Source: Ramlibacter sp. PS4R-6 (GTDB taxonomy: Bacteria > Pseudomonadota > Gammaproteobacteria > Burkholderiales > Burkholderiaceae_C). Taken from it: 64,000 nt of DNA. The translations under genes were made by a program, and so were the position numbers. The stretch spans positions 868,001 to 932,000 of the forward strand of contig NZ_JBBHKA010000001.1 of assembly GCF_037572775.1 (NCBI RefSeq), read 5' to 3'. Shown piece by piece: positions 7,417-26,528 of the stretch (positions are counted from its first letter, which is position 1; each line of letters begins with the position of its first letter). The notes under the pieces are model-generated. The model was given only the letters and a program-made list of their open reading frames with translations, was not told the DNA's origin and ran no database searches.

Positions 7417-8314
7417 GGTTCTGGACGGCCGCGCCGCTGGCGCCCTTGCCCAGGTTGTCCAGGCGCGCGATGAGGACCGCCTGGCGCGTCTCCTCGTTGC
7501 CGTAGACGCGCAGTTCCATCTTGTTGGTGTCGTTCAGCGCCGTGGCCTCGATGCGGCCGCCTTCGGTCGGCGGCTCCACCGTCACCCATTCGCTGCCGGC
7601 GTAGTGCTTCGCCAGCGCATCGTGCAGGTCGGCGAGCTTCGGCTTGCGCGGCAGCTCGTCGAGGAAGAGCGGCAGTTCCACCAGCATGCCCTGGTTGAAG
7701 CAGGCGACCGAGGGAATGAAGATGGGCCGGCGCGTGAGCCCCGAGTACTTCACCATCTCCGGCAGATGTTTGTGTTTCAACGACAGGCCATAGACCTCGA
7801 ACGGCCCGGCCTCGTTCTTCTCGAACGCCTCGATCATGGTGCGCCCGCCGCCGGTGTAGCCGCTGGTTGCCGGCACCACGAGCGGGAAGTCCTTCGGGAT
7901 CAGCCCCGCGTCGACCAGCGGGCGGATCAGCGCGATCGCGCCGGTGGGGTAGCAGCCGGGGTTGGTCACGCGCCTGGCTTTCGCAATCGCCTCGGCTTGG
8001 CCGGGCGCCAGTTCGGCGAAGCCGTAGACCCAGCCCTCGGCGACGCGATGGGCGCTGGACGCATCGATGACGCGCGGCGCGCGCCCCTGCGTGCGCTCGA
8101 TGTCATCGACCATCGCCGCCGACTCGCGCGCGGCGTCGTCGTGCAGGCACAGGATGACGAAGTCGACGCCGGCCATCAGCTCGCGCTTGGCGGACGGGTC
8201 CTTGCGCCGCTCCGGCGCGATGCTCACCAGTTCGATGGCGGGCATCTTTTCCAGCCGCTCGCGGATCTGCAGGCCGGTGGTTCCGGCCTCGCCGTCGATG
8301 AAGACCTTGGGCAT
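7394..8314 (-). CDS. argC: N-acetyl-gamma-glutamyl-phosphate reductase, type 2
   Basis: Catalyses the NADPH-dependent reduction of N-acetylglutamyl-phosphate to the semialdehyde in arginine biosynthesis. 306 residues, the short type 2 form. The nucleotide-binding [10 protein letters not shown] sits at the N-terminus and the catalytic Cys is C121 in NPGCYPTGA; the later KHKHLPEM segment is also characteristic. The ATG at 8314 is preceded by an AGGA ribosome site, and longer in-frame extensions lack family similarity. It is a lone arginine gene, divergent from sucCD and convergent with the TPR glycosyltransferase. Confidence 0.95.
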
Positions 8315-10674: not shown

Positions 10675-11364
10675 ATGGAAATGCTGCAGACGCCGGAGTT
10701 CTGGATCGGCCTGGTCAAGATCATCTGGATCAACATCATCCTGTCGGGCGACAACGCGGTGGTGATCGCGCTGGCCGCGCGGACGCTGCCACCGCACCAG
10801 CAACGGATGGCGGTGCTGTGGGGCGCGGGCGCCGCCGTCGTGCTGCGCGTGGTCCTCACCGTGGTCGCGGTCAAGCTGCTCGCCTTGCCATACCTGCAGA
10901 TCGTCGGCGGCCTGCTGCTGCTGTGGATCGGCGTGCAGTTGCTCTCCGAGGACGACGAGGACGCGAACGACACCGACGAGGAAAAGGCCAGCAACCTGAT
11001 GTCGGCCATCCGCACCATCCTCATCGCCGATCTGGTCATGAGCCTGGACAACGTGATCGCGGTCGCCGCGGCGGCCGGCGGCAGCACCACGCTCCTCGTC
11101 CTGGGCCTGGCGATCAGCATCCCGCTGGTGATCTTCGGCGCCACGCTGATGGTCAAGCTGATGGAGCGCTATCCCATCATCGTCGTCGCCGGCGCGGGCC
11201 TCATCGGCTGGGTGGCGGGCGAGACCATCGTGAGCGACGCGATCCTCAAGGACGTGCTCGAAGCGAACAAGTGGCTGCACTACGCCGCCGCGGTGGCCGG
11301 CGCCGTGTTCGTGGTCGGCCTGGGCAAGTTGCTGCAGTCGCGAGGGCGCGCGCAGGCTGCCTGA
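10675..11364 (+). CDS. TerC-family integral membrane protein (YjbE type)
   Basis: 229 residues with about seven predicted membrane helices. The TerC signature is present twice: IILSGDNAVVIALA near residue 20 and ADLVMSLDNVIAVAA near residue 120, each with the intramembrane Asp-Asn pair. An acidic, His-free loop (EDDEDANDTDEE) joins the halves. TerC-family proteins have been linked to tellurite resistance and, in several bacteria, to manganese export. The second TerC gene in this window (41982-42668) has a manganese riboswitch; this one has no such leader that I can see. SD-like GGAGA lies upstream. Confidence 0.9.
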   Translation: MEMLQTPEFWIGLVKIIWINIILSGDNAVVIALAARTLPPHQQRMAVLWGAGAAVVLRVVLTVVAVKLLALPYLQIVGGLLLLWIGVQLLSEDDEDANDTDEEKASNLMSAIRTILIADLVMSLDNVIAVAAAAGGSTTLLVLGLAISIPLVIFGATLMVKLMERYPIIVVAGAGLIGWVAGETIVSDAILKDVLEANKWLHYAAAVAGAVFVVGLGKLLQSRGRAQAA

Positions 11365-11544: not shown

Positions 11545-14304
11545 GTGGGCAAATCTAAATCCAAGCGTGGCCAGTTCTGGCGCGCGGACTGGTTCGTGGG
11601 CGCCGTCATCGTGGTGGCTGTGCTCATCCTGTACCAGGCGACCGACACGATCAGCACCCTCGAGCGGCGCTTCTACGATTTCGGCATCACCAGCAGTTCG
11701 CGCGCGCCGTCGGACCGCATCGCGGTGATCGCCATCGACGACCAGAGCATCGCCAACATCGGGCGCTGGCCGTGGTCGCGCGACGTGCACGCGGAGATGA
11801 TCGACAAGCTCTCCGCGGCGAAGGCCAAGACCATCGCCTACAACGTGTTCTTCAGCGAGCCGCAGGTCGACCGCGGCCTGTCGTTCATCCGCAAGCTCAA
11901 GGAGGTGCTGGGCCCGCAGGCCGACGCCGCGAACGAGCCGATCGGCAAGGTCATCGCCGAAGCGGAAGCCACGCTCGACACCGACGCCAAGCTCGCCGCC
12001 AGCATCGGCAAGGCGGGCAACGTGCTGCTGCCCTCGGTGTTCCAGCTGGGCGAGCCCCAGGGCAAGCCCGACAAGCCGCTGCCCGGCCCGGTCGCCAAGA
12101 GCGCCATCGACGAGAAGTCGGGTTTCTCGGTGCTCGCCGTGCGCGGCACCTATCCCATCGACGCGATGGGCAACCCGGCAGCCGGCATCGGCCACCTGAA
12201 CCAGTGGCCCGACGTGGACGGCGCGGTGCGCCAGGAGCCGCTGCTGGTCAACTACTACGGCCAGGCCGTGCCCTCGATGGCGCTGCTGGCCGCGGCCAAG
12301 AGCCTGAACCTCAAGCCCTCGGACATCAAGTTGAACGGCGGCGAGTCGGTGCAGATCGGCCGCCTGCGCGTGCGCACCGACGGCGCCGCGCTCATGTACC
12401 CGCAGTTCTACAAGGCGCGCGACGGCAAGATGCCCTTCGCCGTCGATTCCTTCTACGACGTGCTGGCCGGCAAGATCCCGGCGGCCAAGTACGCCGACAA
12501 GATCGTGCTGATCGGAGCGACCGCCGCCGGCGTGGGCACCGTGTTCCCCGCGCCGGGCTATGCCGGCCTGTCGCCCGCCGAATACATGGCGCACGTGACC
12601 TCCAGCATCCTGGGCGAGCACTTCATCGTCGAGCCGGGCTGGGGCCTGTGGGCCACCGCCGGCATCTTCCTGCTGGTGGCGGGCTACCTGATCGCGGGCC
12701 TGCCGCGCCTGTCCGCCGGCATGGCGGCGGGCGTCACCGCCGGCGCCTTCGTGGTGCTGCTGGCCGCGGAGTTCGCGCTGCTGTCGTCGGCCTCGATGTG
12801 GCTGAAGCTGGTGCTGCCCGCGACGCTGCTGGTGATCGGCCACCTGGGCCTGACCACCAAGCGCTTCCTGGTGACGGAAGCCGGCAAGCTCAAGTCCGAC
12901 GAGGAGTCGGCCGAGACCAACCGCATGATGGGCCTGGCGCTGCAGGGGCAGGGCCAGCTGGACATGGCGTTCGACCGCTTCCGCCGCGTGCCGCACACCG
13001 ACGCGCTGATGGACAACCTGAACAACCTCGCGCTGGACTTCGAGCGCAAGCGCCAGTTCAACAAGGCCGAGGCCGTGTACGAGTACATGGCCACGCTGGA
13101 CAAGACGTACAAGGGCCTGGAAGCCAAGCTCAATCGCGCGAAGAACCTGTCCGAGACCGTCATCCTCGGCGGCGGCGGCGCGCACCCCGGTGGCACCATG
13201 CTGCTCGATGGCGGCGGTGTCGAGAAGCCGATGCTGGGGCGTTACCAAGTCGAGAAGGAACTGGGCAAGGGCGCGATGGGCGTCGTGTACCTGGGCAAGG
13301 ACCCGAAGATCGGCCGCGTGGTGGCGATCAAGACGATGGCCCTGTCGAACGAGTTCGAGGGCGAGGAGCTGAACGACGCGCGCGAGCGCTTCTTCCGCGA
13401 GGCCGAGACGGCCGGCCGCCTGCAGCACCAGAACATCGTGACCATCTTCGATGCGGGCGAGGAACACGACCTGGCCTACATCGCCATGGAGTTCCTCAAG
13501 GGCCGCGACCTCGTCGACTACTGCAAGGACGGCAACCTGCTGCCCATGAACAAGGTGGTGACGATCGTCGAGCGCGTGGCCGGGGCGCTCGCGTACGCGC
13601 ACCGCGCCAACGTCGTGCACCGCGACATCAAGCCCGCGAACATCATGTACGAGCTGGACACCGACACCGTGAAGGTGACGGACTTCGGCATCGCGCGCAT
13701 CACCGACTCCAGCAAGACCAAGACGGGCCTGGTGCTGGGCACGCCGAGCTTCATGTCGCCCGAGCAGATCGCTGGCAAGAAGGTCGACGGCCGCTCCGAC
13801 CTGTACTCACTGGGCGTGATGCTGTTCCAGATGCTGGCCGGTGTGCTGCCTTTCCGCGGCGATTCGATGGCCGAGCTGATGTACAAGATCGCCAACGAGC
13901 CGGCGCCGGACATCCGCATCATCCGCAAGGACATCCCCGAGCGCCTGGCCGCCGTGGTTGCCAAGTCGCTCGCGAAGAAGCCCGAGGAGCGCTACCAGGA
14001 CGGCGACCAGTTCGCCGCCGACCTGAAGGCGGCGCTGGGCGATGCGGGCGCGGCGGCGTCGTCGTCGTCGGCGCCCTCCACCCTGTCCAAGGGCGAGGCG
14101 GCGCTGGCCGCGGCCAACCCGGGCGGCGAGTCCTATGCGGCGCAGGAGGGTTCCGGCGCCGCCTACGAAAAGACCGTGGTGGGCATGCCCGGCCCGGGCG
14201 ACGCGGGCTATGATGCGCCGCCACAGGGAGGGGCGGGCTCAGGGCCGGCCTACGAGAAGACCACCACCTTCACGAAGCCAGACGGTGGCGGCTCCGGCTC
14301 CTGA
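11545..14304 (+). CDS. CHASE2-domain serine/threonine protein kinase
   Basis: 919 residues. A membrane helix lies near residues 16-35, then an extracytoplasmic CHASE2 sensor (about 40-330), three further helices (about 360-440), a short helical linker, and a Hanks-type kinase. Kinase hallmarks: glycine loop GKGAMGVVYLG from 574, Lys596 in AIKTM, catalytic H692-R-D694, and D713-F-G. The Ala/Gly-rich tail (830-919) contains two Thr motifs, YEKTVV (T877) and YEKTTT (T906), that could be phospho-docking sites. I chose the GTG at 11545; an upstream TTG (11437) and GTG (11521) are in frame, but a possible promoter (TTGTCC/TAACTT at 11437-11465) falls inside that extension. First gene of a likely operon reaching the ATPase gene at 18989. 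Confidence 0.9.
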   Translation: MGKSKSKRGQFWRADWFVGAVIVVAVLILYQATDTISTLERRFYDFGITSSSRAPSDRIAVIAIDDQSIANIGRWPWSRDVHAEMIDKLSAAKAKTIAYNVFFSEPQVDRGLSFIRKLKEVLGPQADAANEPIGKVIAEAEATLDTDAKLAASIGKAGNVLLPSVFQLGEPQGKPDKPLPGPVAKSAIDEKSGFSVLAVRGTYPIDAMGNPAAGIGHLNQWPDVDGAVRQEPLLVNYYGQAVPSMALLAAAKSLNLKPSDIKLNGGESVQIGRLRVRTDGAALMYPQFYKARDGKMPFAVDSFYDVLAGKIPAAKYADKIVLIGATAAGVGTVFPAPGYAGLSPAEYMAHVTSSILGEHFIVEPGWGLWATAGIFLLVAGYLIAGLPRLSAGMAAGVTAGAFVVLLAAEFALLSSASMWLKLVLPATLLVIGHLGLTTKRFLVTEAGKLKSDEESAETNRMMGLALQGQGQLDMAFDRFRRVPHTDALMDNLNNLALDFERKRQFNKAEAVYEYMATLDKTYKGLEAKLNRAKNLSETVILGGGGAHPGGTMLLDGGGVEKPMLGRYQVEKELGKGAMGVVYLGKDPKIGRVVAIKTMALSNEFEGEELNDARERFFREAETAGRLQHQNIVTIFDAGEEHDLAYIAMEFLKGRDLVDYCKDGNLLPMNKVVTIVERVAGALAYAHRANVVHRDIKPANIMYELDTDTVKVTDFGIARITDSSKTKTGLVLGTPSFMSPEQIAGKKVDGRSDLYSLGVMLFQMLAGVLPFRGDSMAELMYKIANEPAPDIRIIRKDIPERLAAVVAKSLAKKPEERYQDGDQFAADLKAALGDAGAAASSSSAPSTLSKGEAALAAANPGGESYAAQEGSGAAYEKTVVGMPGPGDAGYDAPPQGGAGSGPAYEKTTTFTKPDGGGSGS

Positions 14305-14313
14305 CCGGCCAAC

Positions 14314-15099
14314 ATGAATTACGAGTTCAGCATCCGCACCGACCCGGGCCTCGCGCGTGAGAACAACGAGGACTCGGTCGCCCTCGACGAGGATTCGCGC
14401 CTGGCGATCCTGGCCGACGGCATGGGCGGGTACAACGCCGGCGAGATCGCCAGCGGCATGGCCACCACCTTCATCAAGTCGGAGCTGGGTCGCTGGCTGT
14501 CGCAGGCCGGGCGCAACGCCAACCCGCGCGAGGTGCGGCGGGCCATGGAGATCTGCGTCGACAACGCCAACCGCTCGATCTTCAACGCCGCCAACTCGAA
14601 CCCGCAGTACAGCGGCATGGGCACGACGCTCGTGCTCGCCTGCTTCGGCGAAGGGCGCCTGATCCTGGGCCACATCGGCGATTCGCGCTGCTACCGCGTG
14701 CGCGGTGCCGAGATCGCCCAGATCACCAAGGACCACTCGCTGCTGCAGGAGCAGATGGACGCCGGCCTGATCACGCCGGAGCAGGCGGCCACCTCGACGA
14801 ACAAGAACCTGGTGACGCGCGCCCTCGGTGTGGAGGACGCGGTGTTGCTGGAAGTCAACGAACACAAGGTCGAGCCGGGCGATATCTACCTCATGTGCTC
14901 GGATGGTTTGTCCGACATGGTGGATGATGACGGGATCGCCAAGATCCTCGCGCAGGATGTACCGCTGGAACAGAAGGTGGCCATGTTGATCGACGCGGCC
15001 AATGCCAATGGAGGCCGGGACAACATCTCGGTGCTGGTGGCCCAGGCGAACGAGGGTTCGCGGAGGAAAGGCCTGATTTCCCGGTTGCTCGGGAAATAG
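14314..15099 (+). CDS. PP2C-family Ser/Thr protein phosphatase
   Basis: 261 residues, the compact bacterial Stp1/PrpC type. The metal-binding motifs are in order: RENNEDS near residue 15, ADGMGGYNAGE near 35, GMGTT near 93, HIGDSRCYR near 113 and CSDGLSDMVDDD near 190, with the final GGRDNISVLV. It would remove phosphate from Thr/Ser residues modified by the kinase encoded nine bases upstream. Kinase-phosphatase pairing with a following FHA protein is a familiar bacterial arrangement. Confidence 0.93.
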   Translation: MNYEFSIRTDPGLARENNEDSVALDEDSRLAILADGMGGYNAGEIASGMATTFIKSELGRWLSQAGRNANPREVRRAMEICVDNANRSIFNAANSNPQYSGMGTTLVLACFGEGRLILGHIGDSRCYRVRGAEIAQITKDHSLLQEQMDAGLITPEQAATSTNKNLVTRALGVEDAVLLEVNEHKVEPGDIYLMCSDGLSDMVDDDGIAKILAQDVPLEQKVAMLIDAANANGGRDNISVLVAQANEGSRRKGLISRLLGK

Positions 15100-15154
15100 G
15101 CGGCTTTCGTACTAGTTTGCCGATAATGACGAGGAATTCGAACAGGAGCGGGCC

Positions 15155-15841
15155 ATGCCGAAGATGATCGTCTCGATTGACGGCGTCGTCATCAAGGAAG
15201 TGCAGTTGACCAAGGACCGGACGACGCTGGGTCGCCGGCCCTACAACGACATCGTGATCGACAACCTCGCCGTGAGCGGCGAGCACGCCGTGCTGGCGAT
15301 GAGCGGGCAGGAGGTCTACCTCGAGGACCTGAACAGCACCAACGGCACGTACATCAACGGCAAGGCCGTCAAGAAGCAGCTGCTCGCGAACAACGACACG
15401 GTGGAGATCGGCAAGTACAAGATCAAGTTCATCCACGAGCAGCCGGCGTTCGCGGGTGCCGAGAAGACCGTGATCCTCAAGCCCGGCTCGATCCTGCCGC
15501 CGGCCAAGCCGCCGGCCGCCGCGCCCGCTCCCGGCGCTCCCGCCGCCAGCGTGGAGGCGCAGCAGGCCGACCTGGGCCAGATCAACGCGAGCATCAAGGT
15601 GCTGTCGGGCGCCGCCGCCGGCCGGCAGGTGCCGCTGGTGAAGGTGGTGACCACCATCGGCAAGCCCGGGGTGGCGGTGGCCGCGATCACCAAGCGGCCG
15701 CACGGTTTCGTCGTGGCCCATGTGGAGGGCAGCAACAAGCCGACGCTGAACGGCGCGGCCATCGGCGCGGAGCCGGTGACGCTGAAGAACGGCGACTTGC
15801 TGGAGCTCGCGGGCACCCAGATGCAGTTCGTCCAGGCCTGA
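15155..15841 (+). CDS. FHA-domain phosphothreonine-binding protein
   Basis: 228 residues. A canonical FHA domain covers about 23-92, with the phosphothreonine-contact residues in LGRRPYND, SGEHAVL and NSTNGTYING. An Ala/Pro linker follows (about 112-140). The C-terminal part (about 150-228) reads like a second FHA fold: VTTIGKPG, then a TLNGAAIG turn and NGDLLEL, but without the Arg/Ser binding residues. EKTVIL (T105) resembles the Thr motifs in the kinase tail. No membrane segment. An AGGAG ribosome site precedes the ATG. It probably recognises proteins phosphorylated by the kinase upstream. Confidence 0.9.
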   Translation: MPKMIVSIDGVVIKEVQLTKDRTTLGRRPYNDIVIDNLAVSGEHAVLAMSGQEVYLEDLNSTNGTYINGKAVKKQLLANNDTVEIGKYKIKFIHEQPAFAGAEKTVILKPGSILPPAKPPAAAPAPGAPAASVEAQQADLGQINASIKVLSGAAAGRQVPLVKVVTTIGKPGVAVAAITKRPHGFVVAHVEGSNKPTLNGAAIGAEPVTLKNGDLLELAGTQMQFVQA

Positions 15842-15915
15842 TGGCCCGGCGGGCGTAGTCCGTACAGCGCGGCGCACGAGAACGCCGCCTCACCGAAAGA
15901 GGGGTTCGGGGCCTT

Positions 15916-18165
15916 ATGGGCTTGCTCTCCAAACACTGGTCCCGCATCGCGGTGACGCTGGTTCCGCTGGTGTTCGCGCTGCTGCACGCGATGGGCGTGC
16001 TGCACATCGGCGTGCTGCAGCGCCTGGACGACATCATCTACGACGCCCGCCTGCGCGCCACGATGCCGCGCACGCTGGACGACCGCATCGTGATCGTCGA
16101 CCTCGACGAAAAGAGCCTGGGCGAGCTGGGGCACTGGCCCTGGGGGCGCAACAAGCTCGCGGCCATGATGGACGAACTGTTCGACCGCCAGAAGGTCGCG
16201 GTGGTCGGCTTCGACGTGGTGTTCGCCGAGGCGGACGACAGTTCGGGCCTGCAGCGCCTGCGCCAGCTCGCGCAGGGTGAGCTCAAGGACGCCCCCGGTT
16301 TCGTCAGCCGCCTGGAGCAGATCCAGGGCTCGCTGGACTACGACGCCCTCTTCGCGAAGTCGCTCGCGAAGCGCCCGGTCGTCATGGGGTACTACTTCAC
16401 GCACGACCCGCAGGGCAAGGGCTTCCTGCCGGAGCCGGTGCTGCAGAAGGCGGACCTGCAGGGCCGCACCATCCGCTTCTACGGGTGGGAAGGCTACGGC
16501 TCCAACATCGACGTGCTGGGCAAGAACGCGCCGATGGCCGGCTTCTTCAACCCCGTGGTCGACAACGACGGCGTGCTGCGCTCCATCCCGCTGCTCTCCG
16601 AGTACGGGGGCAAGTACTACGAGACGCTGTCGCTCGCCATGTACCGCCTCGCCATCGGCCTGCCGACGGTGGAGCCCGGCTTCCCGAAAGACACGAAGTT
16701 CTTCAGCTCCAAGACCTACAACGCGCTCGAGAGCATCAACCTGCGCAAGGGCAAGGGCCACTTCGCCATTCCCGTGGACGACAAGGTGGCCAGCCTGATC
16801 CCCTACCGCGGCCTTGGTGGCGTCAAGGGCGGCAGCTTCCGCTACGTGTCCGCGGCCGACGTCATCGGCAAGCGCCTGAAGGAAGGCGAACTGAAGGACC
16901 GCATCATCCTGGTGGGCACGACGGCCGTGGGCCTGCAGGACTTGCGGATCGCCCCGGTCGGCGAAACCTACCCGGGCGTCGAGGCGCATGCCAACGTCAT
17001 CTCGGGCCTGCTGGACGGCAAGGTGTTCTACAAGCCCGACTACGCGGTGGGTTACGACGTCTTCATGATCGTCGTGGCCGGGCTGGTGCTGGCCCTGGGG
17101 CTGCCGCTCCTGTCGGCGACGCGCGCCGTGATCCTGAGCGCCGTCGTCATCGCCATCGTCTTCGGCTTCAACTGGTACCTGTTCACCGCCGAGGGCCTGG
17201 TGCTGCCGCTGGCGGCCGCGCTCGTCATGAGCATCACGGCCTTCGCGCTGAACATGTCCTACGGCTACTTCGTGGAAAGCCGCAGCAAGCGCAACCTGGC
17301 CCACCTGTTCGGCACCTACGTGCCGCCCGAGCTGGTCGACGAGATGGTCAAGGACCCCGAGGCCTACTCGATGGCGGCCGCGAGCAAGGAGCTGACGGTG
17401 ATGTTCTGCGACATGCGCGGCTTCACCAAGATGTCCGAGACCATGGAGCCGTTGAAGCTGCAGGAGCTGCTCAATTCGGTGTTCAACCGCCTGACGGACA
17501 TCATCCGCGGCAACCGCGGCACCATCGACAAGTACATGGGCGACTGCGTGATGGCCTTCTGGGGCGCGCCGGTGGACCTGCCGAACCACGCCTTCCTGGC
17601 CTCCAAGACCTCGATGGAGATGGCCAACGCCGTGCGCAAGATCAACGAGGAACACCGCGCCAAGGGCATCCCCGAGATCGGCGTGGGCATCGGCCTGAAC
17701 ACCGGCAGCATGTGCGTGGGCGACATGGGCTCGGAGCTGCGCCGGGCCTACACCGTCATCGGTGACTCCGTCAACCTGGGTTCCCGCCTGGAGGGCCTGT
17801 CCAAGGTCTATGGCGTGGACATCGTGGTCAGCGAGTCCACCCGCAAGCTGGCCAACGAGTTCGCCTGGCAGGAACTGGACCGCGTGCGCGTCAAGGGCAA
17901 GGAGCAGGCCGTGGCCATCTTCTGGCCGCTCGCGCCGGCCGACCGGCTGGACAAGGCCTACCAGGACGAACTCAAGACCTGGGCCGCTTTCCTCAAGGCC
18001 TACCGCGCGCAGGACTGGGACAACTGCGACCTGCACCTGTTGAACCTGCAGCGGATGAACCCCAAAAAATACCTTTACGAGTTGTATTCGGAACGTGTAG
18101 CCTCGATGAGGTTGCTGCCGTTCGACCCCGAGTGGGACGGCGCCACCAACTTCGAGACCAAGTAA
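15916..18165 (+). CDS. CHASE2-domain class III adenylate/guanylate cyclase
   Basis: 749 residues. An N-terminal membrane helix (about 13-30) is followed by an extracytoplasmic CHASE2 sensor (about 35-360) and three helices (about 378-450). The cytoplasmic class III cyclase domain starts near 485. Metal-binding Asp residues are D499 (FCDMRGF) and D543 (KYMGD); K539 and the IGDSVNLGSRLE motif complete the active site. This makes cAMP or cGMP; sequence alone does not settle which, although the Lys/Asp pair is more typical of cAMP formation. The CHASE2 region is analogous to that of the kinase upstream. Ten bases separate it from the phosphodiesterase-like gene. Confidence 0.9.
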   Translation: MGLLSKHWSRIAVTLVPLVFALLHAMGVLHIGVLQRLDDIIYDARLRATMPRTLDDRIVIVDLDEKSLGELGHWPWGRNKLAAMMDELFDRQKVAVVGFDVVFAEADDSSGLQRLRQLAQGELKDAPGFVSRLEQIQGSLDYDALFAKSLAKRPVVMGYYFTHDPQGKGFLPEPVLQKADLQGRTIRFYGWEGYGSNIDVLGKNAPMAGFFNPVVDNDGVLRSIPLLSEYGGKYYETLSLAMYRLAIGLPTVEPGFPKDTKFFSSKTYNALESINLRKGKGHFAIPVDDKVASLIPYRGLGGVKGGSFRYVSAADVIGKRLKEGELKDRIILVGTTAVGLQDLRIAPVGETYPGVEAHANVISGLLDGKVFYKPDYAVGYDVFMIVVAGLVLALGLPLLSATRAVILSAVVIAIVFGFNWYLFTAEGLVLPLAAALVMSITAFALNMSYGYFVESRSKRNLAHLFGTYVPPELVDEMVKDPEAYSMAAASKELTVMFCDMRGFTKMSETMEPLKLQELLNSVFNRLTDIIRGNRGTIDKYMGDCVMAFWGAPVDLPNHAFLASKTSMEMANAVRKINEEHRAKGIPEIGVGIGLNTGSMCVGDMGSELRRAYTVIGDSVNLGSRLEGLSKVYGVDIVVSESTRKLANEFAWQELDRVRVKGKEQAVAIFWPLAPADRLDKAYQDELKTWAAFLKAYRAQDWDNCDLHLLNLQRMNPKKYLYELYSERVASMRLLPFDPEWDGATNFETK

Positions 18166-18175
18166 GGACAACCGG

Positions 18176-18967
18176 ATGAAGGTGCGGGTGCTGGGCTGCT
18201 CCGGGGCGATCGCCAAGGATTGCCGGACCACCTCTTTCCTGCTCGATTCCGACGTGCTGGTCGACTGCGGCACCGGGGTGGGCGACCTGACCCTTGCCGA
18301 GATGAAGGGAATCGACTACGTCCTCGTGACGCATTCCCACCTGGACCACGTGGCGTCGCTGCCGCTGATGATCGACGCGATCGCCTCCTCGCTGACCAAG
18401 CCCGTGCAGGTCCACGCGCTGCCCGGCACGATCGCCGCGCTGAAGGCGCACATCTTCAACAACGTGATCTGGCCCGATTTCTCGCGCATCCCCACGCCCG
18501 AGAAACCCTTCATCACGTTCCACGAAATCCAGGTCGGCCAGACGCTGGAGCTGCCCGGCAAGCGCATCGAGGTGCTGCCCGCGGTGCACACCGTCCCGGC
18601 GTGCGGCTTCGCAGTCACCTCGGGCAAGGGCTGCTGGATCTTCACCGGCGACACCGAGCGCAACCCGGCCTTCTGGCGCCGCATCAACCAGATGAACGTC
18701 GCGGCGCTGGTGATCGAGACGGCCTTCTCCAACCGCGAGAAGGAGCTGGCCAAGCGCGCGCTGCACCTGGCGCCGGCCTCGCTCGCCGAGGAGCTCGACC
18801 TGATCGACAAGAACAAGCGCTTCCCCATCTTCATCACGCACACCAAGCCGGCCGAGACCGAGATGATCATGGCGGAGATCCAGAAGTTCGACCAGACGCA
18901 GCCGTTCGGCCCGAACGTCACCCACGACATCCGCTGGCTCCATGCGGGCCAGGAATTCGAGTTGTAA
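18176..18967 (+). CDS. Metallo-beta-lactamase-fold protein, probable class II cyclic nucleotide phosphodiesterase
   Basis: 263 residues. It carries the zinc motif H53-S-H55-L-D57-H58, a later VHTVPACGF histidine, TGDTERN and FITHTKP, in the order expected for this fold. The overall layout resembles class II 3',5'-cyclic nucleotide phosphodiesterases. Placement ten bases after a class III cyclase supports a role in hydrolysing its product, but RNase Z-like or other hydrolase activity cannot be excluded from sequence. No signal peptide, so it is cytoplasmic. Confidence 0.75.
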   Translation: MKVRVLGCSGAIAKDCRTTSFLLDSDVLVDCGTGVGDLTLAEMKGIDYVLVTHSHLDHVASLPLMIDAIASSLTKPVQVHALPGTIAALKAHIFNNVIWPDFSRIPTPEKPFITFHEIQVGQTLELPGKRIEVLPAVHTVPACGFAVTSGKGCWIFTGDTERNPAFWRRINQMNVAALVIETAFSNREKELAKRALHLAPASLAEELDLIDKNKRFPIFITHTKPAETEMIMAEIQKFDQTQPFGPNVTHDIRWLHAGQEFEL

Positions 18968-18988
18968 AGAGAGCGGAGGCCACCACCC

Positions 18989-21403
18989 ATGAGTGCCGTG
19001 CTCAAGCCGCAAGTCGGCGGCGATTCCCAAGCATTCTTCGAGTCCCAGCAGCTGCCGCCGGACAAGCGCGGCGTTTCGTTCGAAGCGCTCTTCTACCGCC
19101 AGCTGCAGCTGGTCACCACGAAGATCCACGAGACCGAGAACATCGACCAGATCATGCTGGAGTCCAGCCAGGACATCTGCAAGCTGTTCAACGCCGACCG
19201 CCTCACGCTCTACGCCGTCAACGAGGACCGCACGGCCATCGTCTCCAAGATCAAGACCGGCCTGAACGCGAGCAAGGACCTCAAGCTGCCGATCACGCCG
19301 CAGTCGCTGGCCGGCTACGCGGCGTTCTCGCGCCAGATGGTCAACATCGCCGACGTCTACGACGACGAGGCGCTCAAGAAGATCCACCCGAACCTCGCCT
19401 TCCTCAAGGAGGTCGACAAGCGCTCGGGCTACCGCACCAAGCAGATGATGGTGGTGCCGATCATGGAAGGCGAGAACCTGCACGGCGTGCTGCAGGTGAT
19501 CAACAACAAGAACGACCACCCCTTCGGCGACCTCGAGATCGAAGGCGCCACGCAGCTGTGCAAGACCCTGGCCACCGCGATCCGCCAGCGCATGGCCAAG
19601 GCCGAGGAAAGCGCACGCCGCCGCGCGACGCGTTACTCGGGGCTGGTGAGCGCCGGCGTCATCACGGCCGACGAACTGGAGAACGCGATCCGCAAGGCGC
19701 GCGAGGACGCCAAGCCGGTCGAGCACGTGCTGATGGCTGACTACCAGATCCGCCCGGCGCAGATCGGCCCGTCGCTCGCCAAGTATTTCGGCGTGCCGTA
19801 CGAGCCTTTCAACCCCGGCCGCCTGAAGGTCGAAGCGCTGCACGGGCCGCTCAAGAAGGACTTCATCATCGAGCAGGGCTGGCTGCCATGCGAGGAGTCG
19901 CCCGAAGGCCTGATCGTCATGTGCCTCGACCCGGAGGCCGTGCGTGGTTCGCGCATGGTGCCGCAGGTGCTGCCGCGCTTTTCCAAGTTCGCCTACCGCG
20001 TCACCACGCAGACGGAGTTCGAGGAAACGCTCGCGCAGATCTACGGCGCCGAGGATGCCGGGCCGTCGGTGGACGAACTGCTGGCGGACATGGGCAGCGC
20101 CGGCGACGACGACATCGGGCTCGAGGACGACTCGGTCTCCGCAGCCGCCGACAACGAGCTGGTCAAGCTGGTGAACAAGGTGATCATCGACGCCTACAAC
20201 ATGAAGGCGTCGGACATCCACATCGAGCCGTTGCCCGGCAAGGCCAAGACCGGCATCCGCTTCCGCGTGGACGGCTCGCTGCAGCCGTACATCGAGGTGC
20301 CCGCGCACTTCCGCCAGGCGCTGGTCACGCGCCTGAAGATCATGTGCGACCTGGACATCTCCGAGAAGCGCAAGCCGCAGGACGGCAAGATCAAGTTCAA
20401 GAAGTACGGGCCGCTGGACATCGAGTTGCGCGTGGCCACCATCCCGTCTGCCGGCCAGGTCGAAGACGTCGTGATGCGTATCCTGGCGGCCGGCGAGCCG
20501 ATCCCGCTGGAGAAGCTGGGCCTCACGCCGATCAACAAGGAGCGCCTCGAGAAGACGGTGAGCAAGCCCTACGGCCTGTTCTACGTGTGCGGCCCGACGG
20601 GTTCGGGCAAGACGACCACGCTGCACTCGGTGCTGAAGTTCCTCAACAACGTCGACACCAAGATCTGGACGGCCGAGGACCCGGTCGAAATCACGCAGAA
20701 GGGCCTGCGCCAGGTCCAGATCAACAAGAAGGCCGGCATCGACTTCGCGCTGGTGATGCGCGCCTTCCTGCGCGCGGACCCGGACATCATCATGGTCGGC
20801 GAGTCGCGCGACAAGGAAACGGTGTCCATGGGCGTGGAAGCCTCGCTCACCGGCCACCTGGTGTTCTCCACGCTGCACACGAACTCCGCGCCCGAATCGA
20901 TCATCCGCCTGCTGGACATGGGCATGGACCCGTTCAACTTCGCGGACGCCCTGCTGGGCATCCTCGCGCAGCGCCTGGCCAAGAAGCTGTGCGACTGCAA
21001 GGAGGCGTACGACCCCGACCCGGAGGAGATCAAGACCTTCATCGCCGAATACGCCGAGGACCTGCGCCAGACCGAGGCGTGGAAGAAGGACTATGCGGGC
21101 GAGGCCAAGAAGCTGTACGACACCTGGGTCAAGGACTACGGCCAGGACGGGAAGCTGAAGTTCTACAACCCGGTGGGCTGCGAGAAGTGCAACAAGAGCG
21201 GCTACAAGGGCCGGATCGGCCTGCACGAGCTCTTGGTGGCCGACGACGCCGTCAAGAAGCTGGTGCAGGAACGTGCGCGCGTGGCCGACATCTTCGTGCA
21301 GGCGGTGGCCAGCGGCATGCGCACCTTGAAGATGGACGGCATGGAGAAGATCATGATGGGCCTGACCAGCCTGAAGATGGTCCGCTCCGTCTGCATCAAG
21401 TAG
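18989..21403 (+). CDS. GAF-domain PilB/GspE-family motor ATPase
   Basis: 804 residues, longer than ordinary PilB because of an added N-terminal GAF domain (about 40-200). Next are a GspE/MshE-type N-terminal module (about 215-290) and the ATPase core. Walker A GPTGSGKT is at 535-542; the Asp/His boxes and Walker B ([24 protein letters not shown]) follow. Zinc-type Cys pairs CDC (668-670) and CEKC (731-734) are separated by an unusually long, charged insert. This family powers assembly of type IV pili or type II secretion pseudopili. GAF domains often bind cyclic nucleotides, which fits the cyclase and phosphodiesterase genes just upstream. GGAGG precedes the ATG. Confidence 0.88.
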
Positions 21404-21441
21404 CCGGGCGACAAAAATGTCGTGCGCGTGGGGCGCGATCT

Positions 21442-21475
21442 GCCACATTTGGCGTTCCGCCCCGCAACATTTGCC
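21442..21475 (+). promoter_or_regulatory. Paired 12-bp direct repeats, candidate activator sites for pilA
   Basis: GCCACATTTGGC (21442-21453) and GCAACATTTGCC (21464-21475) agree at 10 of 12 positions and start exactly 22 bp apart, about two helical turns. They end about 30 bp upstream of the -24 element of the sigma-54 promoter. That is a suitable place for an enhancer-binding protein such as PilR, though the sequence was not matched to a known PilR consensus. Confidence 0.5.
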
Positions 21476-21506
21476 AACAAAGGCAGGTTTTTCCCGGGTT
21501 GCGGGC

Positions 21507-21523
21507 TTGGCACAGCAATTGCA
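21507..21523 (+). promoter_or_regulatory. Sigma-54 (RpoN) promoter of pilA
   Basis: TTGGCACAGCAATTGCA matches the -24/-12 consensus TTGGCAC-R-N4-TTGC-W at every defined position, with the required GG and GC spacing. Transcription should begin about 10-14 bases after it, near 21534, leaving a short leader before the GGAGG ribosome site of the pilin gene. RpoN with the PilS/PilR system drives pilin genes in many type IV pilus bacteria. Confidence 0.82.
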
Positions 21524-21560
21524 CGATCAGCCCGCTTCTCTCAACAACTCCGGAGGTGAA

Positions 21561-22040
21561 ATGAAGCGTCAACTGCAACAGGGCTTCACCCTGATCGAAC
21601 TGATGATCGTGGTGGCGATCATCGGTATTCTGGCGGCCGTCGCGCTGCCGGCGTACCAGGACTACACCAAGCGCGCCAAGATGTCGGAAGTGGTGCTGGC
21701 CGCGTCGGCCTGCCGCACGACCATCACCGAGGTGTACCAGACCGGTTCGATCACGAACCCGGGCGCGGGCAGCTGGGGCTGCGAATCGACGACCCAGTCG
21801 AGCAAGTACGTGAAGTCGGTCAACACCGGCACCAACGGCGAGATCACGGTGGAAGCCCAGGGCTTCAACGACACCAACATCGACTCCAAGGTCGTGACGC
21901 TGGTGCCGTACAAGGACGACACGACGGCCATGAGCTCCACGACGCACATCGGCAACCCGGTGTTCAAGTGGGTCTGCGGCTCGACGGGCTCCGGCACGAC
22001 GATCAACCCGAAGTACCTGCCCGGCTCCTGCCGCGGCTAA
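21561..22040 (+). CDS. pilA: Type IV major pilin
   Basis: 159-residue prepilin. A short basic leader ends at G8, with cleavage before F9 (QQG^FTLIE); the conserved Glu5 of the mature protein is E13, followed by the hydrophobic helix [19 protein letters not shown]. Four Cys residues (C51, C74, C139, C157) are present, and the last pair could form the C-terminal disulfide loop. The Ser/Thr-rich C-terminus could carry O-linked sugars. GGAGG fixes the ATG at 21561. It has its own RpoN-type promoter and terminator, and lies between a pilus-type ATPase and a glycan locus. Confidence 0.95.
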
Positions 22041-22100: not shown

Positions 22101-23252
22101 GTGGAACTGACGATTCTCATGCCTTGCCTGAACGAGGCAAGGACGGTGCAGCAGTGCGTGCGCGAGGCGCGCGGCTTCCTCGACGCGCAGGGGATCAGCG
22201 GCGAGGTGCTGGTCGCCGACAACGGGTCGACCGACGGCTCCCAGGCGCTGGCCGGCGCCGCCGGCGCGCGCGTGATCGACGTGCCCCGGCGCGGCTACGG
22301 CGCGGCGCTCATCGCCGGCATCGCCGCCGCGAAGGGTGACTACGTGATCATGGGCGACGCGGACCGCAGCTACGACTTCTCGTCGCTGGCCGACTTCGTG
22401 GCGCGGCTGCGCGACGGCGCGGCCCTCGTCATGGGCAACCGCTTCCAGGGTGGGATCGCGCCGGGCGCGATGCCTTTCCTCCATCGCCACCTGGGCAACC
22501 CGGTCCTGAGCTTCCTGGGGCGCCTGTTCTTCCGCACGCACATCGGCGACTTCCACTGCGGCCTGCGCGGCTTTCGCCGCGACACCATCGAGCAGCTGCG
22601 GCTGGTCAGCCCCGGGATGGAGTTCGCCTCGGAGATGATCGCGAAGGCGGCGCTCGCGGGCGTGCGCATCGACGAAGTGCCCACGACCTTGCGGCCCGAC
22701 GGCCGCGACCGGCCGCCGCACCTGCGCACCTGGCGCGACGGCTGGCGCCACCTGCGCTTCCTGCTCCTGTTCTGCCCGCGCTGGCTGTTCCTCTACCCCG
22801 GGCTGTTCCTCCTCGTAGGCGGTTTGCTCGGCTTCGCAGCGCTGCAGCCCACGGGCGCCGCGCCGCGGGTGCACTCGCTGCTGTACATGGCGGCGGCGGT
22901 GATCCTGGGCGTTCAGCTCGTGCAGCTGGCCGTGCTGACCAAGTACTTCGGCGTGAGTTCGGGCATCGTCCCGGCGCCGGCCTGGCTCGAGCGGTCCAGG
23001 CCGCTGCGCACCGTGGAGACGGGGCTGCTCGTCGGCGGCGCGCTGTTCGTGCTCGGCCTCCTGCTGTCGCTGTTCATCGTGCTGGACTGGGGAGCGACGG
23101 GGTTCGGCGCGCTCGATCCCGCCTTCGGCATGCAGGTGGTGATCCCCGCCGTGTCGCTGATGATCGTCGGCATGCAGGCCGTGGCGGGCGCCCTGTTCGC
23201 CGGCGCGGCCGAGATCTGCTGGCGCAGCGTCAACGGGGCGGCCGATGCTTGA
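22101..23252 (+). CDS. Family 2 glycosyltransferase, membrane-anchored
   Basis: 383 residues. The N-terminal GT-A domain (1-215) has MPCLNEARTV, the VADNGSTDGS nucleotide-sugar loop, GDADRSYDF with the metal-binding DxD-like Asp, and HCGLRGFRRD. About four membrane helices follow (roughly 223-245, 258-275, 310-335 and 345-372). This layout resembles polyprenyl-phosphate sugar transferases such as DPM1 or GtrB, which load a sugar onto the lipid carrier. The start is a GTG; no ATG fits. The stop overlaps the next gene by 8 bp. First gene of the glycan locus. Confidence 0.85.
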   Translation: MELTILMPCLNEARTVQQCVREARGFLDAQGISGEVLVADNGSTDGSQALAGAAGARVIDVPRRGYGAALIAGIAAAKGDYVIMGDADRSYDFSSLADFVARLRDGAALVMGNRFQGGIAPGAMPFLHRHLGNPVLSFLGRLFFRTHIGDFHCGLRGFRRDTIEQLRLVSPGMEFASEMIAKAALAGVRIDEVPTTLRPDGRDRPPHLRTWRDGWRHLRFLLLFCPRWLFLYPGLFLLVGGLLGFAALQPTGAAPRVHSLLYMAAAVILGVQLVQLAVLTKYFGVSSGIVPAPAWLERSRPLRTVETGLLVGGALFVLGLLLSLFIVLDWGATGFGALDPAFGMQVVIPAVSLMIVGMQAVAGALFAGAAEICWRSVNGAADA

Positions 23253-24069
23253 CGAAGGGCGCGCGGCGCCCGCCTGGGTCCTGCGCTGGGAATGGGCGTG
23301 GACGGCCGCACTGGCCGCCATCGCGCTGGCGGCGATCCCCTTGTCCATGGGCTACATCGGCCTGAACTGGGACGCGCTGAACCACCACATCTACCTCGGC
23401 TGGACCGCGGAGCACCCGCGTTTCGGCCAGGACTGGCTGGCCGCCAGCTACCAGTCCTTCCAGTACCCCTATCTGTACTGGCCCGCCTACCGCCTCGCCG
23501 CAGCGGGCACCGACGGCGTTACGGCAGGCGTGGTGCTCGCGGAGCTCAACGTGCTGGTCACGCCCGCGCTGTCGCTGCTCGCCGCAGCCTGCATCCCGGG
23601 GCGCGAATGGTTCCACGTCGCCATGCGGCTCATGTCCGTGGCGCTCGCGTTCTCGTCGGCTGTGGTGCTGTCGATGGTGGCGGGCACCGGCAACGACCTG
23701 CTGGCGGCCATCCCGCTGGTCTGGGCGATCGCGCTGTCGGTACGCGCGGTGGCCGTCCCGGGCCTGGATGAACGCGCGTTGCTGCGCAGTGCCATTGGGT
23801 CGGCGGCGCTCGGGGGCATCGCGACGGCGTTCAAATTGAGCAACGGCGTGATCGTCGTGGTCCTGCCGCTGCTGTGGCTGTGGCCGGGCGACGCATGGCG
23901 CCCGCGCCTTGCGCGCACGGTCCTCGCCGGCCTCGTCGCGGCGCTGGCCTTCTTCGTGGCCTATGCGCCCTGGGGCTGGCAGGTGTGGCAGCAAACGGGC
24001 AATCCGTTCTACCCGATCGCCGACGATTGGCTGGCCCCGCTGCGCGCCCTCACCGGGTGGCATCGCTGA
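23245..24069 (+). CDS. Polytopic membrane protein, N-terminal part (probable split gene)
   Basis: 274 residues with about six to seven predicted membrane helices and no family I can name with certainty. The motif NWDALNHHIYLGW in the first extracytoplasmic loop resembles GT-C type membrane glycosyltransferases. The open frame ends at TGA 24067-24069, right after a GNPFYPIADDW segment; in proteins of this type such a segment normally continues straight into further helices. Those helices are encoded by the next gene in another frame, so the two may be halves of one gene. It overlaps the upstream glycosyltransferase by 8 bp. Confidence 0.7.
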   Translation: MLDEGRAAPAWVLRWEWAWTAALAAIALAAIPLSMGYIGLNWDALNHHIYLGWTAEHPRFGQDWLAASYQSFQYPYLYWPAYRLAAAGTDGVTAGVVLAELNVLVTPALSLLAAACIPGREWFHVAMRLMSVALAFSSAVVLSMVAGTGNDLLAAIPLVWAIALSVRAVAVPGLDERALLRSAIGSAALGGIATAFKLSNGVIVVVLPLLWLWPGDAWRPRLARTVLAGLVAALAFFVAYAPWGWQVWQQTGNPFYPIADDWLAPLRALTGWHR

Positions 24070-25247
24070 TGGCGCTGATCCGCTTCAGTCCCGACACCTG
24101 GGGCGACGCCCTGCTGCGGCCCCTCGCGATGACGGCGCCGGATGCGAACGTGTACGTCGAGATCGCCGCGCCGGACCTGCGGCTGGCGGCGGTGCAAATC
24201 CTCGCGCTGGGCCTGCTGCTGCTCTGGACGCGCCTGCGCTCCAAACCGCCGGCGGCCCTTATCGCGCTGCTGGCCTTCGCGGTCGCGTGCATGCCACCGT
24301 GGCTGCTCACGAGCGGCAACGGCCGCTACTTCATCCCCATCCTGCTCGCGGCGGGCCCGCTGGCGGTCGGGCTGGTGCTCGCCTTGCCGCTGTCGCGCCG
24401 CATGCAGCTGGCGCTGGTGGCCGGCCTGCTCGCCGGCCAGGTGTTCGTCGTCAGCGAGCGGCCGCCCTGGGACGCGTGGGCGTGGTCGTCGTGGGGCCAG
24501 GGCAATTACTTCCAGGTGGACGTGCCGAAGGCGGACGACCCGCGCCCGGTCACCTACGTCACGCTCTCGAGCATCAGCTATTCGCTGATCGCGCCGCAGT
24601 TTCCGCCGCAGTCGCGCTGGATCAACGTCGCGTCGGTCGGCGAGGGACGGCGCGACACGGCATGGGGCCGCGAGTTCATCGCGCGCTCGCCCGGCCCCAT
24701 CCGGCTGCTCGCGCCCACCATCCCCGGCCAGCTCGACGCGCAGGGCCTCCCGATCCCCGACGTGCGCGATGCGCTCGACAAGCTGCTGGCTCCGCACGGC
24801 CTCGCGCTGGCCGGCGCCGACGCCTGCACCTTGCTGCGGTCCGGCGGGCTGCGTTCGATCGGCACGCATGCCGGCCGCGAGCCGCCGAAGGAGCCCGTGG
24901 GCTTCTGGCAGTGCTCGCTCAAGCGCCAGGACGCCGTGAACCCCGTGCCGCAGGAGCCGGTTTCGCCGCAGGCGCTGCAGGCGCTGGCGAAGGTCGAGCA
25001 GATGTGCCCGCGCTTCTTCCAGCATGGCGAAGGCGTGCTGCGCATCCCGCACGGCGTCGTGCGCCACTACCCGGATTCGGACATGAAGGTCTACGTGCTG
25101 AACGACGGCCGCGTGCTCTACAAGTTCTGGCGCGCGCTCAACCCCGTGGAGATCGGCACCGTGGCGGGCCTCCTCGACGGCACCACGAAGTTCGACTGCA
25201 GCTTCATCCGCGGGCGCAGCGGGCTGCCGTGGAACCGGGAGATCTGA
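24069..25247 (+). CDS. Membrane protein, C-terminal part of the probable split gene
   Basis: 392 residues from the ATG at 24069, which shares one base with the previous stop (TGATG). The first 140 residues hold about four membrane helices; the rest is a soluble domain of about 240 residues with conserved-looking blocks such as YFIPILLAAGPL near the helices and HYPDSDMKVYVLNDGR near the end. The frame is open back to 23874. A single-base indel between 23874 and 24066 would therefore join this part to the preceding gene and give a protein of about 665 residues. Otherwise the pair must be translated by stop-start coupling. Function unknown; membrane glycosyltransferase is a guess. Confidence 0.65.
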   Translation: MALIRFSPDTWGDALLRPLAMTAPDANVYVEIAAPDLRLAAVQILALGLLLLWTRLRSKPPAALIALLAFAVACMPPWLLTSGNGRYFIPILLAAGPLAVGLVLALPLSRRMQLALVAGLLAGQVFVVSERPPWDAWAWSSWGQGNYFQVDVPKADDPRPVTYVTLSSISYSLIAPQFPPQSRWINVASVGEGRRDTAWGREFIARSPGPIRLLAPTIPGQLDAQGLPIPDVRDALDKLLAPHGLALAGADACTLLRSGGLRSIGTHAGREPPKEPVGFWQCSLKRQDAVNPVPQEPVSPQALQALAKVEQMCPRFFQHGEGVLRIPHGVVRHYPDSDMKVYVLNDGRVLYKFWRALNPVEIGTVAGLLDGTTKFDCSFIRGRSGLPWNREI

Positions 25248-26528
25248 GTGCAGGTGCGCCGCATCCTGCTGGACTGCACCTACACGCGCCTGCAACCGCG
25301 CGCTGTCGGCATCACGCGGACGGTGCGGCGGCTGGCCGAGGAACTGCCGGCTGTCGCGCGCGCGCAAGGCGCCGACTTCGTCTGCGTCGCCTTCGACGGC
25401 GACGGCTTCCGCGACGCCGGTGCGCTCGCGCCCCTCGCCGGCGACGAGGCCCGGCCAGCGGCGCTGCGGGCCGCCACCGGCCCGTTGAAGCGGGTGGTCG
25501 AGAACATCCTGCGGCTGCCCTGGCCCCTGGTCCGGCCGGCGTGGGCGTTGGCATCGGGCGTGTCGTTTCGCGAGGCCGTTGCATCGCGGAAGCGGATCGC
25601 GTTCGCGCCCGGCGACGTGCTGGTTCTCGCCGACGCCAGCTGGAACTACGCGGTCGACAAGGGCGCGCGCCAGGCGCGCCGCAGCGGCGCCGCCGTCGTG
25701 GGCGTGATCTACGACCTGATGCCCTTGCAGGCGCCGCAGTTCTGCCTGCCCTGGGTGCGTGGGGCTTTCGCCGACTGGTTGAGGCGGCTGGTGGGCGGCA
25801 GCGACGCGCTGCTGTGCGACTCGCGCTTCACGCTCGAGAGCGTGCGCGAGGCGGCGCGCCGCCATGGCTGGGAGATGCCGCCGGCGGATTCGTTCCGGCT
25901 CGGCTGCGACGTGCCCGTCGCCTCCGATGGCAGCGTGCGCGATGACCTGCGCGCTTTCCTGCAGCATCCGCGCTGCTACGCGGTGCTGGGGTCGTTCGAG
26001 CCGAAGAAGAACCATGCGCTGGTCGTCGCTGCCTTCGAAGACGCGTGGCGCCGCGGCTGCGACGCCCGGCTGCTCGTCATCGGCCGCAGGACCGGCGAGT
26101 GCCGCGACGTGGTCGAACGGCTCGAACGCCATGCGCGCGAGGCCGCCCGGGTGATGCTGGTCGACGACGCGAACGACACGGAGGTCGCGCACGCGTACCG
26201 CCATTGCCGCGCGCTCGTGGTCCCCTCGCTGTACGAAGGCTTCGGCCTGCCGCTGGTTGAAGCCCGTACGGCCGGCTGTCCCGTCCTCGCGAGCGACCTG
26301 CCGGTGTTCCGCGAGATCGCCGACGCGGGCGTGCGCTGGTTCGACCCGCGCGACGCGTCGCAATTGGCAGGGCTGCTGATCGACGACGCGTCCGGCGGCG
26401 CCGCGGCCGTGCCCGCGATGCCCGCCTTCAGCTGGCGCGACAGCGCGCGGCAATGCGTGGAGCGGATCGGGGCGCTCCTGCCGGCGCCCGGTGGTGGCGT
26501 ATCCTTGCTGGGGAGCAGCACCCCATGA
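25248..26528 (+). CDS. Family 1 (GT4-type) glycosyltransferase
   Basis: 426 residues, GT-B fold. The C-terminal nucleotide-sugar domain is clear: GSFEPKKNHALVVAAFE, LLVIGRRTGE, VPSLYEGFGLPLVEA with the E-x7-E motif, and ASDLPVFREIA. The N-terminal acceptor domain starts RRILLDCTYTR. It would add a hexose-type sugar to a lipid-linked glycan at the cytoplasmic membrane face. The start is a GTG immediately after the preceding TGA, and its own stop overlaps the GHMP kinase start (ATGA), so this is a tight operon. Confidence 0.88.
   Translation: MQVRRILLDCTYTRLQPRAVGITRTVRRLAEELPAVARAQGADFVCVAFDGDGFRDAGALAPLAGDEARPAALRAATGPLKRVVENILRLPWPLVRPAWALASGVSFREAVASRKRIAFAPGDVLVLADASWNYAVDKGARQARRSGAAVVGVIYDLMPLQAPQFCLPWVRGAFADWLRRLVGGSDALLCDSRFTLESVREAARRHGWEMPPADSFRLGCDVPVASDGSVRDDLRAFLQHPRCYAVLGSFEPKKNHALVVAAFEDAWRRGCDARLLVIGRRTGECRDVVERLERHAREAARVMLVDDANDTEVAHAYRHCRALVVPSLYEGFGLPLVEARTAGCPVLASDLPVFREIADAGVRWFDPRDASQLAGLLIDDASGGAAAVPAMPAFSWRDSARQCVERIGALLPAPGGGVSLLGSSTP

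Follow-up and report, generated by a model that had tools for sequence, protein, structure and literature searches.

A conserved beta-proteobacterial operon joining phosphothreonine and cyclic-nucleotide signaling genes to a GAF-domain, PilB-like ATPase

The window analyzed here is a stretch of 64,000 nucleotides from the 3.84-Mb genome of Ramlibacter sp. PS4R-6 (contig NZ_JBBHKA010000001.1, positions 868,001 to 932,000), and the system in question is a run of six genes on its forward strand (11545-21403). These encode, in order, a CHASE2 Ser/Thr kinase, a PP2C phosphatase, an FHA-domain adaptor, a CHASE2 class III cyclase, a metallo-beta-lactamase (MBL)-fold, phosphodiesterase-like enzyme and a GAF-domain ATPase of the pilus extension-motor type; the pilin gene pilA follows (Table 1). 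A sequence-only reading of this DNA had described these six closely spaced genes as placing a writer, an eraser and a reader of phosphothreonine beside a maker and a breaker of a cyclic nucleotide, both directed at a pilus motor. All six genes are present as that reading stated, with intact catalytic motifs and with successive intergenic gaps of 9, 55, 74, 10 and 21 bp.

Table 1. Genes and sites of the operon and of the adjacent pilin gene (window coordinates; aa, amino acids; ORF, open reading frame)
Feature	Position	Strand	Basis and remarks
CHASE2 Ser/Thr kinase, 919 aa, GTG start	11545..14304	+	Pfam; CHASE2 aa 22-385, Pkinase aa 567-817
Juxtamembrane Thr codon (SETVILGG), candidate autophosphorylation/FHA-docking site	13156..13158	+	phosphorylation putative
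PP2C phosphatase, Stp1/IreP-type, 261 aa	14314..15099	+	Pfam; NCBIfam NF033484
FHA adaptor, 228 aa	15155..15841	+	Pfam; FHA domain aa 23-86, linker, second conserved region (77 orthologues)
Linker motif AEKTVIL (FEKTM-type)	15458..15478	+	candidate switch Thr105, codon 15467-15469
CHASE2 class III cyclase, adenylyl-type residues, 749 aa	15916..18165	+	Pfam
MBL-fold, class II cAMP-phosphodiesterase-like enzyme, 263 aa	18176..18967	+	PF02112 (PDEase_II)
GAF-MshEN-T2SSE ATPase, extension-motor type, 804 aa	18989..21403	+	Pfam
Sigma-54-type promoter of pilA (TGGCACAGCAATTGCA)	21508..21523	+	only strict match in window
Type IVa pilin pilA, 159 aa	21561..22040	+	PF00114 and N_methyl (on longer ORF)

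An alignment of the ATPase served as the query for genome scans. A first scan, of named genomes, gave at least 577 relatives, of which the best 80 were kept. In a second scan, of 300 genomes spread over the order, 119 had an ATPase match at E <= 1e-180, five of them (G286, G077, G154, G098 and G242) only to a weaker second ATPase subfamily; a phylum-wide scan matched 10 of 397 genomes at E <= 1e-200, four of which lie outside the order (712-723 bits). The resulting set of 189 loci, 184 of them distinct, consists of the window, 17 loci from relatives, those best 80 of 577 and 91 further loci. Upstream genes were counted in the 145 distinct loci whose sequence extends at least 9 kb upstream from the ATPase, and downstream genes in the 127 loci with at least 3.3 kb downstream. 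Because loci were selected for carrying the ATPase, and the 80 for being the best matches, these counts describe its neighborhood and not the prevalence of the operon.

Within the 145 loci the FHA gene is present in 126, the PP2C gene in 124, the MBL gene in 120, the cyclase gene in 99 and the kinase gene in 96. The full set of six occurs in 84 loci, and in all 84 the gene order is that of the window; median gaps among the six genes are 10-57 bp, and the MBL and ATPase genes overlap in 35 of the 147 pairs measured. The PP2C and FHA genes occur together in 124 loci, are both missing from 19, and only twice is the FHA gene present alone. The six genes are a deeply conserved beta-proteobacterial operon, not chance neighbors, which answers the objection, raised along with the sequence-only reading, that their homologues might be scattered elsewhere and adjacent only here. 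Two metagenome bins, L111 and L118, have the record titles Mycobacteriaceae and Bordetella parapertussis, yet contain the typical betaproteobacterial operon and group within the betaproteobacterial clade; the titles are probably misassigned. Anti-phage defense was considered as the function of the locus and set aside: PADLOC gives generic kinase and cyclase matches, weak PP2C and ATPase domain matches and none for the FHA and MBL proteins, and the locus often adjoins sucD and terC.

HRD and DFG motifs occur in 99 of 99 kinase orthologues, and a Gly-rich, SETV-type segment in 86 of the 99; [FY][ED]KT motifs are present in the tails of 9 of 58 kinases, the window's among them. The phosphatase passes the Stp1/IreP model NF033484 (251.9 bits against a cut-off of 230). 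The linker of the adaptor bears an FEKTM-type motif that is found in 67 of 81 FHA proteins, as against 0.5 expected from shuffling, this count being based on a stricter pattern that the window's own AEKTV falls outside; in the second conserved region, inspection by eye revealed no phosphothreonine-pocket motifs.

The linker motif varies with the kinase. Where the kinase is encoded in the locus, the motif is kept in 102 of 103 loci. Among the 31 loci lacking a local kinase the motif is still present in 23, and each of these 23 genomes encodes at least one Hanks kinase (in searches that differed in queries and thresholds); in eight of them (G052, G318, G184, G062, G300, G273, G216 and G245) a CHASE2-kinase orthologue, in some cases listed with an in-frame stop, lies elsewhere in the genome. 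The CHASE2 kinase was not found in any of the ten genomes in which the motif is lost (those of L083, L090, L091, L093, L096, L098, L099, L100, L141 and L189); nine of these, for which completeness is not given, were searched at a threshold of E <= 1e-30, which yielded a single weak match, in L083, and nothing in the other eight. When mapped onto the ATPase tree, motif loss amounts to five changes, at least three of which are forced by supported branches, with seven of nine rows in one clade. Hence the linker Thr co-varies with the kinase, as looked for in an OdhI/GarA-type FHA switch, with locus L257 as the exception. This co-variation strengthens the proposed set of writer, eraser and reader of phosphothreonine, and it points to Thr105 of the adaptor as a putatively phosphorylated switch site, as in PknG-OdhI/GarA.

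A stricter rule, that the local kinase gene and the FHA motif are always lost together, was tried and rejected: it held in the first sample bar six loci and failed in the wider sample, in which the motif survives in 15 loci that have no local kinase and genome searches located that kinase or another Hanks kinase elsewhere. Likewise, a co-loss of the kinase SETV segment with the cyclase and MBL genes was dropped, being contradicted by L088. The CHASE2 kinase gene stands apart from the remaining operon genes, near sucD, in family f23 and likewise in the genome of L122 (L320-L326, L328); all that is left in G109 is a fragment of the kinase domain.

Among 108 cyclase orthologues, the K-x-x-G-D pattern is matched by 107, T..GD..N...R by 103 and the first metal-site pattern by 97. 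By these patterns the protein has the metal Asp, the Lys/Thr substrate residues and the Asn/Arg pair, which we take to be those of class IIIb adenylyl cyclases, and cAMP is its predicted product. Since the CHASE2 sensors of kinase and cyclase are 27% identical, the two may respond to different ligands. In the MBL enzyme, HxHxDH is found in 144 of 145 orthologues, the GD motif in 142 and the later His in 134. A 120-bp remnant (8190-8309) that matches the cyclase is left in L189 between the FHA gene and the MBL gene; the latter is intact, and the MBL enzyme has thus outlasted the cyclase there.

In some relatives the operon contains two further parts. A gene encoding a protein with cyclic nucleoside monophosphate (cNMP)-binding and rhodanese domains (here CNR) sits between the MBL and ATPase genes in 23 of the 145 loci, and its cNMP pocket, FGEEAL, with the pocket's Arg, is invariant in 21 of 21 CNR proteins. 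A GAF-HD-GYP gene follows the ATPase gene in 76 of the 127 loci, with the HD motif present in 100 and the GYP motif in 98 of 101 HD-GYP proteins. Outside the order, where the ATPase is 40-42% identical to that of the window, two of four loci have a GAF-HD-GYP gene beside it, and in one of the four it adjoins a gene for a CHASE2 protein that gives no cyclase match. The presence of GAF-HD-GYP beside the ATPase outside the order suggests that the link between them may predate the kinase relay.

The ATPase itself has the motifs of the T2SSE motor superfamily: Walker A and the Asp box are found in 181 of 181 sequences and a four-Cys pattern in 177 of 181 (the Walker B pattern being loose), and the His box TGHLV..TLHT is invariant in a 13-row alignment, though a too-strict pattern scored it in 60 of 181. 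PilB is its best-scoring NCBIfam model, yet it falls below the PilB cut-off (TIGR02538, 454.8 bits against 675.65), the TfpB cut-off (NF053534, 383.2 bits against 850) and that of GspE as well; the same genome's PilB (816.9 bits) and TfpB (893.1 bits) lie elsewhere. Twelve sampled GAF-ATPases form one clade relative to 15 other rows (support 100/99), in a tree that has several other long branches of weak placement. Its MshEN domain is just over the Pfam cut-off (24.7 against 23.1), and RLG..L, which we take to be the cyclic di-GMP (c-di-GMP) receptor motif of MshEN, was found in none of the 181 ATPases. The idea that the GAF-ATPase might serve as the only extension motor was abandoned: TIGR02538 is matched in 170 of 300 genomes of the order, and six genomes that have a GAF-ATPase and no such match have other T2SSE ATPases, namely PilB-like ATPases (TIGR02538 scores of 488-575 bits) in five of the six, one further ATPase being TfpB. 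Genome G003, of the same genus, has two full GAF-ATPase copies (C141:12542-14944 and C1:480-2882; 82% and 79% identical to that of the window), in an assembly listed with 9% contamination. L184-L188 carry a second MshEN-T2SSE subfamily, which gives no GAF match and is 46-54% identical to the ATPase; in L184 it adjoins an mlaA gene.

The pilin gene starts at 21561 and not at the mechanical ORF start at 21417, which leaves 157 bp between it and the ATPase gene. The expected number of strict sigma-54 matches in 64 kb is 0.81 and one was observed, so that the weight of the site before pilA comes from its position and from relatives: a strict match lies within 260 bp upstream of the pilin gene in 23 of 56 loci with a pilin downstream (against 0.05 expected after shuffling the bases, and none on the opposite strand), with no such match in the other 33. 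Judged from this sequence pattern, pilA is very probably a transcription unit of its own, a neighbor of the operon rather than its end, with read-through possible. Thus the view that the run ends at pilA holds insofar as a pilin is next door, but very probably not as regards transcription, given the separate promoter-like site, the later start and the wide gap. Pilus control gains from the pilin gene found within 3 kb downstream of the ATPase in 63 of the 127 loci, in many families, but with pilA very probably separate and such a pilin confined to those 63 loci the case is weaker than the sequence-only reading stated.

Tandem pilin copies occur in some relatives (L063 12618-14117 and L017; for example, Ramlibacter albus), as against one in the window. 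Downstream of pilA the window (22146-38372) contains glycosyltransferase, sugar-nucleotide and other surface-polysaccharide-like genes, and in several relatives a glycosyltransferase gene follows the pilin gene, perhaps for glycosylation of the pilin or the cell surface. Two genes for TerC-family-like membrane proteins lie in the window, at 10675-11364 (by Pfam) and at 41982-42668 (judged by sequence); the former is directly upstream of the operon and often occupies the same place in relatives.

The reading preferred here, in which confidence falls just short of even, is that this conserved beta-proteobacterial operon controls a dedicated PilB-type ATPase through phosphothreonine and cAMP, with pilus extension as the output. 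The CHASE2 kinase would sense a signal outside the cytoplasmic membrane and autophosphorylate; the probable site is the juxtamembrane Thr of the SETV segment, joined in some Comamonadaceae by a site in the tail. The FHA adaptor would dock on the kinase phosphothreonine and be phosphorylated at linker Thr105, whereupon its own FHA domain would capture the phosphorylated linker and thereby change its effect on the ATPase; the PP2C phosphatase would reset it. The cyclase, as a second CHASE2 sensor, would make cAMP, which the MBL enzyme would help to degrade and which, in some relatives, CNR would read; in many relatives the GAF-HD-GYP enzyme would lower c-di-GMP at the same place. The putative output would be extension of a pilus whose pilin gene is often next door under its own predicted sigma-54 promoter. 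A broader formulation is held with confidence appreciably short of even: that the ATPase represents a new class of extension motor, for pili or pilus-like filaments, in beta-proteobacteria, with a co-encoded three-messenger circuit that comprises a self-capturing FHA adaptor, a cAMP receptor acting beside the motor (not through transcription) and local removal of c-di-GMP by GAF-HD-GYP, the window's genus having a reduced form of this circuit without CNR and HD-GYP.

A number of observations weigh against this reading. The link between adaptor and ATPase is drawn from gene order, and both CNR and HD-GYP are absent from the window's operon. The PilB and TfpB encoded elsewhere in the genome indicate that pili as such do not require this motor, and no pilin gene lies within 3 kb in 64 of the 127 loci. 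The ATPase is also seen with the MBL gene alone, or without any of the other five genes. The maker and the breaker of the sequence-only reading are both there, as cyclase and phosphodiesterase-like genes, but their pairing is loose: both are present in 93 of the 145 loci, MBL only in 27, cyclase only in 6 and neither in 19. As to the relay, L257 keeps the kinase and has lost the linker motif, and G313 (the genome of L189), where the motif is lost, nevertheless encodes three other Hanks kinases, the closest of which matches the operon kinase at 9.2e-29. Moreover, the FHA pocket is intact where the linker motif is lost, as are the metal-site residues of PP2C over 72 orthologues; among the motif-loss loci PP2C is kept in 8 of 10 and gone in 2, and in 4 others short patterns missed single motifs. 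The intact pocket and phosphatase imply that the relay is not simply dead in these loci, and another phosphothreonine input may persist there.

Alternative explanations bear on each link in this chain. The linker motif could be a structural or docking element rather than a phosphosite, its loss along with the kinase being part of a general decay of the operon within a single clade: seven of the nine first-sample losses do fall in one clade, rich in Rhodoferax, in which the loci have no cyclase or MBL gene either, and the motif persists in the 23 loci noted above without a local kinase. This is made unlikely by the three or more supported changes on the tree, by an FHA domain that itself shows no decay, and by four loci (L065, L069, L082 and L084) that lack cyclase and MBL, have the kinase and keep the motif. 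Those same four loci, which have a pilin and retain kinase, PP2C and FHA, instead favor a division of the operon into two independent modules, one relaying phosphothreonine signals to the ATPase and the other using cAMP to act on transcription via CRP/Vfr-type regulators encoded elsewhere. The operon of the window has no cNMP receptor, while 21 matches to the cNMP-binding domain lie elsewhere in its genome, and in Pseudomonas aeruginosa cAMP is described as acting via Vfr on pilus gene transcription (PMC11656802); the location of CNR between the MBL and ATPase genes, and its N-terminus and rhodanese domain, which as far as Pfam shows form no DNA-binding layout, argue for the opposite and render such a division improbable.

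It is somewhat unlikely that the MBL protein is another phosphodiesterase or a nuclease near the ATPase instead of a cAMP phosphodiesterase. Its top NCBIfam score is for RNase Z (56.1 bits, cut-off 292.95), it reaches 31.1 bits against a cut-off of 400 for the cyclic-nucleotide phosphodiesterase model NF041851, and it persists without the cyclase in the 27 loci counted above. PF02112, however, is matched at 47.8 bits against a cut-off of 23.7, though over 61 residues only, yeast PDE1 is the best solved relative by sequence, and the MBL gene accompanies 93 of the 99 cyclases. Finally, the ATPase might power some other type IV filament-like machine, for secretion or another filament, and not the pilus of the adjacent pilin, as its scores below the PilB, GspE and TfpB cut-offs, the separate promoter of pilA, the 64 loci without a nearby pilin, and the presence of PilB and TfpB elsewhere would allow; since PilB is nonetheless its best model, an adjacent pilin recurs in many families, and genes for a secretin, PilC or a pseudopilin were not noticed in the run, this is judged quite unlikely.

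Each part of the operon has known counterparts. The kinase PknG uses a flexible, autophosphorylated segment to recruit an FHA substrate, which it phosphorylates on a Thr in the substrate's own flexible segment (PMC8546545). This actinobacterial PknG-OdhI/GarA system has the same layout as the operon's kinase and adaptor; it differs in targeting central metabolism and in that PknG is soluble with C-terminal tetratricopeptide repeats, whereas the kinase here is a CHASE2 membrane protein. The operon's FHA protein also scores below the OdhI cut-off (62 bits against 200). GarA is reportedly an intramolecular switch, and its switch Thr precedes the FHA domain, whereas the candidate Thr of the operon's adaptor follows it. 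In the threonine phosphorylation pathway of the type VI secretion system (T6SS), PpkA, PppA and Fha switch on the machine and Fha binds the phosphothreonine of TssL (PMC3953482), so that there, too, a kinase, a phosphatase and an FHA protein act on a cell-envelope machine. The operon adds a cyclase, an MBL enzyme and an ATPase, T6SS genes were not noticed in the run, and the FHA protein is below the Fha/TagH cut-off (TIGR03354, 35.1 bits against 120.25). In Sulfolobus the regulatory proteins ArnA/ArnB, with an FHA reader and phosphorylation, act on the archaellum, which serves motility and is itself a relative of type IV pili (PMC6509490). That system differs in being archaeal, in having a vWA protein as FHA partner and in modulating archaellum expression. 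To our knowledge, the ArnA/ArnB unit includes no cyclase or motor.

As regards motors, TfpB shows that extension motors need not be limited to one (PMC8213720). The operon ATPase shares the T2SSE-type hexameric motor family with PilB and TfpB and differs from them in its N-terminal GAF domain, its separate clade and the kinase, FHA and PP2C genes in the same run. Known control of pilus motors includes Chp/cAMP-dependent transcription and the c-di-GMP effectors PilZ and FimX, as described in a 2024 review of PilB control; a term search of that review found none of the terms GAF, FHA, serine or threonine (PMC11656802). Searches directed at the joined system in an open-licence library turned up no account of it, nor of the FHA Thr motif, in agreement with the earlier suggestion that the arrangement is not a characterized system; the parts themselves are of known kinds.

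If the reading preferred here is true, the operon adds phosphothreonine control to bacterial pilus motors, and it might explain why this genome encodes three PilB-like ATPases (PilB, TfpB and the GAF-ATPase). More generally, it is a widespread operon in which enzymes of Ser/Thr phosphorylation and, by prediction, of cAMP--and in relatives of c-di-GMP--are encoded beside one motor.

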